Made by a program: the position numbers and the translations under genes. From a virus, in IMG/VR virus record IMGVR_UViG_3300027896_000288, positions 1-20,018 of that record: 20,018 bases of DNA. One strand, given 5' to 3'. Shown here in pieces: positions 10,552-12,926 of this stretch. The first letter of the stretch is position 1. Each line of letters begins with the position of its first letter. The notes below the pieces were generated by a model. That model was not told the origin of the DNA. It saw only the letters and a list, made by a program, of their open reading frames with translations, and made no database searches.

Positions 10552-10645
10552 TATGCCGGAATGGGGGTTCTCAACCGCTTATCGAAAGGGATTAAAGTGG
10601 GAACCTGGTTTTCTCACGCTCCCACACCGATTGGGAAGGAGAGAA

Positions 10646-10927
10646 ATGGGTAAGAAAATAACCCTTATTTTACCGTTCAGACTCCCGACTTGGAATCAAC
10701 TATTAGCCATGAACAGATGGGAAAGGGCAAAGGTACGCCATTGGATACACGAGCAAACATTACGGTGTTGTCGAGGACACGGAGAGAGGCCGACCCCGAT
10801 GGAAGAAGTATTAAGGCTGTCGTTGACGGACTTGTCATTGCAGGAGTATTACAAGATGATTCAGCCAAATTCATCAAAAAAGTATCTCAGGAGCAAGAGC
10901 TTACAAAAGAGACTGAGGAAACAATAA
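10646..10927 (+). CDS. RusA-like gene, frame with the N-terminal part (frameshifted)
   Basis: ATG 10646 has AAGGAGAG just upstream; the frame is open from further upstream, but that part looks untranslated. The first 36 residues contain ITLILPFRLPTWNQLLAMNR and an Arg/Lys-rich helix, matching the beginning of RusA-type Holliday junction resolvases. After about position 10753 the protein in this frame loses all resemblance (Cys, Arg and Lys-rich sequence), while the -1 frame picks up the conserved RusA C-terminal half. The intact protein would therefore need a -1 shift between about 10730 and 10760. Confidence 0.55.
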   Translation: MGKKITLILPFRLPTWNQLLAMNRWERAKVRHWIHEQTLRCCRGHGERPTPMEEVLRLSLTDLSLQEYYKMIQPNSSKKYLRSKSLQKRLRKQ

Positions 10928-10947
10928 TTACCCTTGAGTGGGAATAA
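10690..10947 (+). CDS. rusA: RusA-like Holliday junction resolvase, frame with the C-terminal part (frameshifted)
   Basis: This frame is open from 10654; the first possible start is TTG 10690, without a good ribosome binding site. Its C-terminal half has the RusA signature: DPDGRSIKAVVDGL, then AGVLQDDSAKFI, corresponding to the D-x-D-N-x-x-K-x-x-x-D and DD-x-x metal-binding region. RusA cuts four-way junctions during recombination or before packaging. Note G where the family normally has Asn. Joined to the upstream frame, the protein would be close to 100 residues, somewhat shorter than the usual 120. Either a base is missing from the sequence, the gene is broken, or a ribosomal -1 shift makes the full protein. 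Confidence 0.6.
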   Translation: MESTISHEQMGKGKGTPLDTRANITVLSRTRREADPDGRSIKAVVDGLVIAGVLQDDSAKFIKKVSQEQELTKETEETIITLEWE

Positions 10948-11002: not shown

Positions 11003-11030
11003 TTGACATTGGGGAAAATAGGTGTATGGT
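11003..11030 (+). promoter_or_regulatory. sigma70-type promoter of the replication/packaging operon
   Basis: TTGACA at 11003-11008 is a perfect -35 box; after 16 bases comes TATGGT (four of six consensus bases) at 11025-11030. It lies in a 245-base gap without a gene, and transcription would begin near 11037, giving a leader of about 155 bases. Confidence 0.7.
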
Positions 11031-11036
11031 GAAGAT

Positions 11037-11192
11037 GTCGAATCGAGGATTCTGTTGTGAGATTATCAACCTTAAAAATTAATCAGGCTCGGTCGTTGAC
11101 CGGGGAATTATCAGCCTCCAATTTTCGGGGTCCGAAGCGGTCTCATAGCCCCTCGGTTCGACAATCCCGGGAAAAGGAGGCTGTATAATTTT
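11037..11192 (+). promoter_or_regulatory. riboswitch-like 5' leader able to hide the Shine-Dalgarno sequence
   Basis: CAGCCTCC at 11112-11119 is perfectly complementary to GGAGGCTG at 11176-11183, the ribosome binding site of the replication gene. The helix can continue through CGGGG (11126-11130) with TCCCG (11165-11169). In the alternative, AGGCT (11085-11089) pairs with AGCCT (11113-11117), stacked on CGGTC/GACCG (11090-11094 with 11098-11102, loop GTT), which would leave the ribosome binding site free. A small hairpin GAATC/GATTC occupies 11040-11052. The two main folds exclude each other, as in translational switches. Trigger unknown. Confidence 0.6.
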
Positions 11193-11936
11193 ATGGGTAA
11201 GAACCCTGCATTTCAATTCTATCCTTCTGATTGGTCCCGAGACCTCGAAGAGCACCCCCTTGAAATTGAAGGAGCCTGGATAAGGATTTGCTGTAAATTA
11301 TGGTGGGAAGAAAATCGAGGATCGGCTACCAAAACCTTGACGCAATGGTCCCGCGTACTGCGTGTCGGGGAGAAAAAAAGTTTTACAATTATAGGGTATT
11401 TGCTTAAACAAAAAATAGCAGACGTGCTTATCCAAAATGAAAGCATAACCATAACATCAAGAAGGATGATTAAAGACGAACATATAAGAAAAATAAGGGC
11501 TTCGGCTGGAAGTATGGGTGGAAACCCAGCCCTCAAAACACAATCAGAAAGTAGTGGTTTGGTTAAGCAAAGTTTGGTTAAGCAAAAACCAACCCCTTCT
11601 TCTTCTTCTTCTTCTTCTTCTTCAAAGAAAAAACCATATACGGTCGATTTTGAAACTTTTTATAAAGCATATCCAAAAAAGAAAGCCCCCGATTCAGCGT
11701 GGAAATCATGGAAAAAAAGGAATGGAGATAGACCGCCCATTGAGGTTATTCTTAGGGCAATAGAAATTCAGAAAGAGTCAAACCAATGGAAAAAAGACGG
11801 AGGCCAGTATATACCACACCCGGCAACTTGGTTAAATCAAGGCCGGTGGGATGATGAAGTCGAAATAGAGGTCTTAGACAAAATAGAACAGGAATATAAG
11901 GAGAAATATGGACACTTACCCGGACAACTGGCCTAA
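11193..11936 (+). CDS. phage replication initiation protein (DUF1376-like N-terminus, helicase-loader-like C-terminus)
   Basis: The 247-residue protein has an N-terminal domain, about residues 1-105, starting PAFQFYPSDWSRDLEEHPLE. The AFQFYPSDW and EGAWIRICC motifs are typical of DUF1376-type and related phage replication proteins. A linker of nine Ser follows at about 136-144. The C-terminal domain has FETFYKAYPKKK, AWKSWKK, IPHPATWLNQGRW and DDE, seen in phage O-like or DnaT-like proteins that recruit the helicase. A helicase gene lies just downstream, consistent with an origin-binding protein and loader acting on it. GGAGG lies about 12 bases before ATG 11193, a slightly long spacing, and is the target of the leader pairing. 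Confidence 0.75.
   Translation: MGKNPAFQFYPSDWSRDLEEHPLEIEGAWIRICCKLWWEENRGSATKTLTQWSRVLRVGEKKSFTIIGYLLKQKIADVLIQNESITITSRRMIKDEHIRKIRASAGSMGGNPALKTQSESSGLVKQSLVKQKPTPSSSSSSSSSKKKPYTVDFETFYKAYPKKKAPDSAWKSWKKRNGDRPPIEVILRAIEIQKESNQWKKDGGQYIPHPATWLNQGRWDDEVEIEVLDKIEQEYKEKYGHLPGQLA
11597..11623 (+). repeat. (TTC)9 microsatellite coding for a poly-Ser linker
   Basis: Nine uninterrupted TTC units run through the replication gene and are read as nine Ser codons. Length changes would be in whole codons, so they would change linker length without breaking the frame. Confidence 0.9.
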
Positions 11937-12144
11937 AGGATTACCAGAAACAATACCCGAAGTTCAATCCCAAAGAGATTGGCTTAAAGATCAACTCCTT
12001 GAAATGCAGGAGGACCAAGCCCTTTATTCACAACTCAAAGACGATTTAACCGGCAAAGATGTTGATACAGATATTCTTTTGGAAGAAATACAGTCGTTAC
12101 AACTTGAAATTATTAATATTATTGGGAAGGAATTAATTAAATGA
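11908..12144 (+). CDS. small acidic helical protein between initiator and helicase genes
   Basis: The 78-residue acidic protein starts 29 bases before the end of the preceding gene, with AAGGAG at 11898-11903. It has a Pro-rich beginning and long helices (EVQSQRDWLKDQLLEMQEDQ, ILLEEIQSLQLEIINIIGKE). It is ATGA-coupled to the helicase, and its position suggests a helicase or initiator partner. No family is recognised. Confidence 0.65.
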   Translation: MDTYPDNWPKGLPETIPEVQSQRDWLKDQLLEMQEDQALYSQLKDDLTGKDVDTDILLEEIQSLQLEIINIIGKELIK

Positions 12145-12926
12145 ATCAAGACGATCTTAAGGAATACGCAGGAGACGACAGAATAATATCAGCCTTTGAA
12201 TTTCTCGCGAATCAAAAAGAACAACCCCACACAACCCCTTATTGTTCACTTATTCCAAGACTTGACAATCTTATCGAAGGTTTCCAACCGGGGGAGCTTA
12301 TCACGATCTCGGGACCAACCAAAAACGGGAAGACCTTACTTGGTCAGACTATAACAAAAAACTTTTATCATCAACAAATTATCTCCCTTTGGTTTTCCTT
12401 TGAGGTCCCAGCCAAGCAATTCATATCCCAATTTGGAAAGGACCTGCCCCTAATCTATATGCCTGCCATTCTTAAGGCCGCTTCTTTACCATGGCTTAAA
12501 GAACGTATCCTTGAGGCTAAGGCAAAGTATAATATCAAGGCAATCTTTATAGACCATCTTCATTTTCTATTCGACCTCATGGCTTCAAAGAATACCAGCC
12601 TCCAAATAGGTCAGGTTATCCGTACCCTTAAATCAATAGCCATAGAGCAGGAGCTTGTTATCTTCCTTATGGCTCATACTCAAAAAGGTGATGGCGATTC
12701 ATACTCCCATATTCGAGATTCATCCTTTGTCTCTCAAGAATCAGATAGCGTTCTCTTGGTTAAGCGCAGCCCAAACACAAAGAAGAAAACAGAAGGATTT
12801 GTAATTGTTGAGTTTCACCGTAGAACCGGAGTATTAAGAGAGATAGTTCCTATAATAAAAATAGGTAATTTTTTTGAAGAGTTGAGCGCAGATCAACCGG
12901 ATCAAGACTATCACGATAGATTTTAA
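12141..12926 (+). CDS. DnaB-like replicative helicase / RecA-fold ATPase
   Basis: The 261-residue protein has a Walker A motif GPTKNGKT at residues 58-65 and a Walker B-type strand ending in IFIDH (Asp138). Later motifs (VIFLMAHTQKG near 173-183, ESDSVLLVKR near 200-209) fit the DnaB C-terminal ATPase. A short N-terminal region ending in a LIEGFQPGELITISG strand is typical of DnaB and KaiC relatives. The usual DnaB N-terminal domain is missing, so it corresponds to the motor domain only, as in several phage helicases. It would unwind DNA at the fork after loading by the upstream initiator. It is coupled to the preceding gene by ATGA. Confidence 0.85.
   Translation: MNQDDLKEYAGDDRIISAFEFLANQKEQPHTTPYCSLIPRLDNLIEGFQPGELITISGPTKNGKTLLGQTITKNFYHQQIISLWFSFEVPAKQFISQFGKDLPLIYMPAILKAASLPWLKERILEAKAKYNIKAIFIDHLHFLFDLMASKNTSLQIGQVIRTLKSIAIEQELVIFLMAHTQKGDGDSYSHIRDSSFVSQESDSVLLVKRSPNTKKKTEGFVIVEFHRRTGVLREIVPIIKIGNFFEELSADQPDQDYHDRF

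Follow-up and report, generated by a model that had tools for sequence, protein, structure and literature searches.

The phages in which RNA-based immunity is understood are, to our knowledge, few, for example P4 and P1/P7. In P4, processing of the replication-gene leader yields the CI RNA, which pairs with seqA and seqC and halts expression of the replication genes (PMC4825925). The C4 RNA of P1/P7 is a processed, leader-type RNA with three stems, in which the a' and b' loops set the target specificity (PMC5320573); in P1 it regulates the antirepressor, not a replication initiator (PMC8546580). The precursors of C4 RNAs are substrates of RNase P (PMC11143913 and PMC5320573).

Here we describe the leader of a phage replication initiator gene, at 11037-11192, which we regard with moderate confidence as a candidate phage self-antisense immunity RNA, probably an autogenous antisense switch of the P4 CI/P1 C4 kind. 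It lies in the IMG/VR virus record IMGVR_UViG_3300027896_000288, whose 20,018 bases are referred to as the window. The record encodes a P22-type portal and a DnaB-type helicase and contains terminase genes; since it is a fragment, a repressor or integrase may lie elsewhere. The features of the region are collected in Table 1; transcription would start at about 11037, behind the promoter-like sequence.

Table 1. Position and basis of the features in and around the initiator leader.
Feature	Coordinates	Strand	Basis or remark
Promoter-like TTGACA-16-TATGGT	11003..11030	+	consensus scan 10/12, consensus match only; predicted start ~11037
b1 target, leader 5' end	11036..11048	+	13/13 pairs with b', G-U counted
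Fold B, whole-leader hairpin of nascent transcript	11037..11162	+	-49.5 kcal/mol, z -4.6
a1 target	11054..11064	+	11/11 pairs with a', G-U counted
Inner end of fold B, AGGCT arm plus hairpin CGGTC-GTT-GACCG	11085..11102	+	folding
Fold A, C4/CI-like hairpin burying RBS	11105..11191	+	z -5.0 for 11104-11191; RBS unpaired 0.001
Anti-RBS arm CAGCCTCC of closing stem	11112..11119	+	sequence, exact complement of RBS
a' loop segment GGTCTCATAGC	11139..11149	+	folding, complementarity to a1
b' segment CCTCGGTTCGACA	11151..11163	+	3' half unpaired in fold A; complementary to b1
RBS GGAGGCTG in 3' arm of closing stem	11176..11183	+	sequence; GGAGG to ATG spacing 12 nt
Replication initiation/primosomal protein	11193..11936	+	PHROG 9474, 270 and 9327; directly behind leader
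Short DnaB-type helicase	12141..12926	+	PF03796; downstream of initiator, same direction

Several neighbouring sequences deserve a remark of their own. Just 5' of the leader a RusA-like reading (10553-10947, the likeness being judged by eye) seems to be divided between the frames 10553-10927 and 10690-10947, which a frameshift or an assembly error might explain; the 10690 frame had no match in Pfam. The initiator gene contains a (TTC)n tract at 11595-11623, read as a run of serines between the N- and C-terminal parts, which is a possible slippage site. Farther away, the protein encoded at 5194-5919 matches a PHROG of unknown function and carries a long Ala/Tyr/Ser repeat tract, with MPP and GGI repeats in the overlapping frames.

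Two competing folds of the leader

The leader is an unusually clear two-state element. At equilibrium the full leader is modelled as hairpin A, in which the ribosome binding site (RBS) is paired with a probability near 1; this bears out the original prediction of two competing folds, one of them hiding the RBS. The pairings on which that prediction was built are indeed present: the anti-RBS arm is an exact complement of the RBS, and CGGGG (11126-11130) pairs with TCCCG (11165-11169), with one G-U, as part of a 10-pair helix (11122-11131/11164-11173). Altogether the closing stem consists of 8 + 10 pairs flanking an AA/AA internal loop (11112-11131/11164-11183). The accompanying argument, that a perfect eight-base complement is unlikely to arise by chance in a leader of this size, holds for an upstream complement of this particular 8-nt RBS, which appears in 0.13% of dinucleotide shuffles, but not for a perfect 8-bp complement of any kind, which appears in 18.5% of dinucleotide shuffles of the leader. 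As for the fold as a whole, none of 1000 dinucleotide shuffles of 11104-11191 matched it, and the minus strand of the same segment also folds well (z -4.1). Nowhere else in the 20 kb is the fold residual as strong as in the leader region, and the folding of its upstream part is extreme among the 32 gene starts of the window (z -3.9); the sequence just upstream of the leader is ordinary (z -0.5). The distance between RBS and ATG is long, and this counts against reading the leader as an antisense switch.

The competitor of A is larger than originally supposed. Enclosing a perfect CGGTC-GTT-GACCG hairpin (11090-11102), AGGCT (11085-11089) is able to pair with AGCCT (11113-11117), and this element does form in the alternative fold; it makes up no more than the inner end of fold B, a hairpin of 126 nt that begins at the predicted transcription start. 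None of 1000 dinucleotide shuffles of 11037-11163 reached the stability of B, and the fold is favoured on the plus strand (z -2.4 on the minus strand). In the model, transcripts that end between 11162 and about 11186 fold into B, and A becomes the lower in energy only once 11187-11192 has been added and the transcript reaches 11190-11192, so that B is formed first during transcription and ties up the arm that masks the RBS. A path search from B to A finds a barrier of about 33 kcal/mol. Blocking 11037-11064 in the model removes B and leaves only fold A, with the RBS buried. When the anti-RBS arm is blocked instead, as a model of the B-like state, the RBS is unpaired with a probability of about 0.30, and is thus not fully free, because the coding region pairs with it.

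The largest element was absent from the original prediction: 11036-11048 pairs with 11151-11163, and 11054-11064 with 11139-11149. With G-U pairs counted, the leader's 5' end (11036-11064) is complementary to 24 of the 25 nt that form the interior of hairpin A (11139-11163). Of the 3,997 windows into which the 20 kb was tiled, the one that best matches 11139-11163 is this 5' end (-33.1 kcal/mol, z -5.1), and the duplex (-33 kcal/mol) was equalled in none of 5000 shuffles; the 13-pair helix taken alone is not very rare, as a run of that length is found in 32 of 1000 shuffles. Fold A shows a CTCATA loop within 11139-11149 and an unpaired TTCGACA at 11157-11163. The two-state leader is real, but larger and different in kind from what had been proposed. 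Since the interior of hairpin A is complementary to the 5' end of its own transcript, as in the P4 CI RNA, the sequence points to RNA as the trigger.

According to the mechanism that we favour, the nascent transcript would fold first into B, its 5' end pairing with 11139-11163; this would sequester the anti-RBS arm, and the initiator would be translated. Leader RNA in fold A, coming from earlier transcripts or from a resident prophage, would display a' and b', and these would bind the 5' end (11036-11064) of new transcripts. With its 5' end so occupied, a new transcript could not form B and would fold into A, whereby the initiator RBS would be buried and phage replication stopped. Such an RNA would act in trans and would undergo processing, and its role may be either immunity or copy control.

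Comparison with C4 and int-alpA RNAs

The leader of P4 was used as a control for the comparison with known families. It is recognized by the Rfam model for C4 (RF01695) with 74.9 bits and by isrK with 60.8, and gives a near-threshold match to c4-a1b1; the upstream targets that match a' and b' in P4 stand in b1-a1 order, the same as in the window. In the window, neither C4 nor int-alpA (RF02996) has a match at the gathering score or at E values up to 10, and the window matches no Rfam family of any kind. Weak matches to mir-942, mir-7445, sn2317, dauA and BYDV_5_UTR fall far below the gathering scores and were discarded, and a tRNA reading of the TTCGA stretch and the 72-nt span was rejected, since ARAGORN finds no tRNA.

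In layout, the leader resembles the P4 CI RNA. The window also has a replication-gene leader, a long closing stem (17 pairs in the C4 model), an a' segment in a hairpin loop, an unpaired b' segment before the 3' arm, and upstream b1-a1 targets that pair with b' and a' along their whole length. The differences from P4 are that the antisense stretches are 24 nt in the window versus 7-8 nt in P4, that the RBS sits inside the closing stem, and that the tetraloop hairpin which follows the 5' arm in C4 is absent from the best fold of the window; the bases TTCGG-GGT-CCGAA could form a small hairpin, though in competition with the closing stem. Moreover, a tiled complementarity search of the record revealed no strong site for a' or b' that could serve as a second, downstream target pair near the RBS. 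Unlike P1/P7 C4, the hairpin of the window does not begin with the GG that has been described for processing by RNase P. In its proposed function the leader is like C4/CI, but it is not assigned to C4, because there is no match to the model, no tetraloop hairpin in the best fold and no downstream target pair.

Rfam places int-alpA RNAs upstream of initiator homologues in three loci, L299 (2404-2472), L306 (1971-2038) and L292, and the 12-mer AAGCGGTCTCAT of L299 and L292 is common to positions 11135-11146 of the window. The arrangement of stems differs from that of the window, in which the int-alpA model finds no match. Loop and downstream target change together between L299 and L306, suggesting that the int-alpA RNA may also be self-antisense.

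Other possible ways of switching the leader

The order of folding, B and then A, could also be explained without any RNA acting in trans, if B briefly permitted translation of each new transcript and A, being lower in energy once 11187-11192 has been made, then closed the RBS. The leader of the MS2 maturation gene embodies this idea of a brief translation window that is closed by refolding. Nevertheless, the barrier between B and A appears too high for an unaided timer, and we consider a purely cis-acting kinetic switch unlikely.

The original prediction had left the trigger to a metabolite, temperature or a phage protein, and a protein, metabolite or ion that favours one fold would be in keeping with the bistable architecture, which resembles that of riboswitches. 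No Rfam riboswitch family was matched, however; the model keeps the RBS paired at all temperatures between 20 and 75 C, contrary to a thermometer, which would open it on moderate warming; and the leaders of related initiators retain the layout and not the sequence, unlike a ligand pocket. A switch of this type therefore seems quite unlikely.

In the attenuators of pT181 and pIP501, which are also located in replication-initiator leaders, the attenuator hairpin has a competitor in a 5' arm, and the antisense RNA is made from the opposite strand. The leader of the window likewise has a 5' arm competing against a hairpin, and a minus-strand promoter-like sequence, TTGAAA-17-TAAAAT at 11216-11188, might provide an opposite-strand RNA that blocks fold B. 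This promoter is not convincing: such minus-strand sites occur at chance level over 3 kb, there is none in L235, L233 or L238, and the -35 element falls in codons of the initiator, so that plasmid-like control of this kind is improbable. Finally, a static hairpin, be it a weak terminator, a constitutive damper of the RBS or an inverted repeat that acts as DNA close to an origin, would agree with A being the equilibrium structure and with the good folding of its minus strand, but is very improbable given that B is independently far beyond chance and more so on the transcribed strand, and that the tail TATAATTTTATG is a poor U-tract, for which reason burial of the RBS is also favoured over termination.

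Leaders of related initiators

We return to the self-antisense switch and its possible occurrence in other phages. No leader that could be aligned with that of the window, and hence be examined for covariation, was found in phages, plasmids or the fetched loci, and only leaders of related initiators were compared. Single-protein scans with the initiator or the helicase found nothing, and an exact-pattern scan for CAGCCTCC...GGAGGCTG gave 106 matches, about the number expected by chance, in none of which the leader was similar. When conserved motifs were used for the scan, many viral contigs proved to encode initiators whose N-terminal domain is related. The 27 initiator leaders with long gaps have a median z of -3.0 (67% below -2), versus -0.3 (11% below -2) for 66 control leaders; the p-value of this difference, 1.4e-4, is optimistic because some leaders are related.

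Two leaders of related initiators repeat both the layout and the folding order of the window. In L235, whose initiator is 48% identical, b1-a1 (GGCACAGAGG, GCGTGA) is antisense to a hairpin loop followed by TTTTCTTTT (z -4.5). In L321, TGCGAGGC..TTGGAT is antisense to ATCCA..GCCTCGCA in a hairpin, the 3' arm of which holds AGGGAGG adjoining the ATG (z -2.1). Only these two leaders and the window convincingly pass a shuffle test for upstream complementarity; L381 passes it too, but by way of a palindromic GC repeat. The P4 control scores only z -0.9, as its short targets of 7-8 nt are invisible to the test, and a negative result in the other leaders therefore says little. L233 and L238 suggest the same plan, short of significance. 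A possible RBS can be recognized at the 3' arm in L253, L258 and L286, and a U-tract at the 3' arm in L258, L323 and L333; the hairpins of several relatives look like terminators, unlike that of the window. Target and loop change together between L258/L309 and L289, as they do between L299 and L306; such joint changes may be taken as support for self-antisense pairing, but not as proof (the sequences are few and were chosen by eye). The element is not universal, since four of the seven closest initiators (L234, L236, L237, L239) are without such a leader, mostly because the gene directly follows its neighbour.

Two further observations concern the initiators themselves. In L233, the closest but one, the stretch 1823-1850 offers only ATA/ATC, and no in-frame ATG, GTG or TTG, before the conserved start GKNPAFQFYP, reflecting an unusual start codon or a sequence error. 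In L165 (1034-2892) the closest relative of the helicase (61%) stands behind an initiator whose N-terminal domain is unrelated; its leader was set aside as not comparable, and the arrangement suggests that N-terminus and leader are exchanged as a module.

It is possible, though we advance this only tentatively, that in many tailed phages the leaders of initiators of this family belong to an unrecognised, fast-evolving class of self-antisense RNAs, which would serve as phage-specific immunity or copy-control RNAs; in one form, represented by the window, L321 and probably others, the RBS lies within the closing stem, and the transcript would be either message or regulator. If this is true, RNA-based immunity would be common in those replication leaders of tailed phages that have no recognised regulator, and a comparison of loops with targets would allow one to predict which phages exclude each other. 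The form with the RBS in the stem would be simple in design, since the transcript would be repressed and the regulator produced in a single event.
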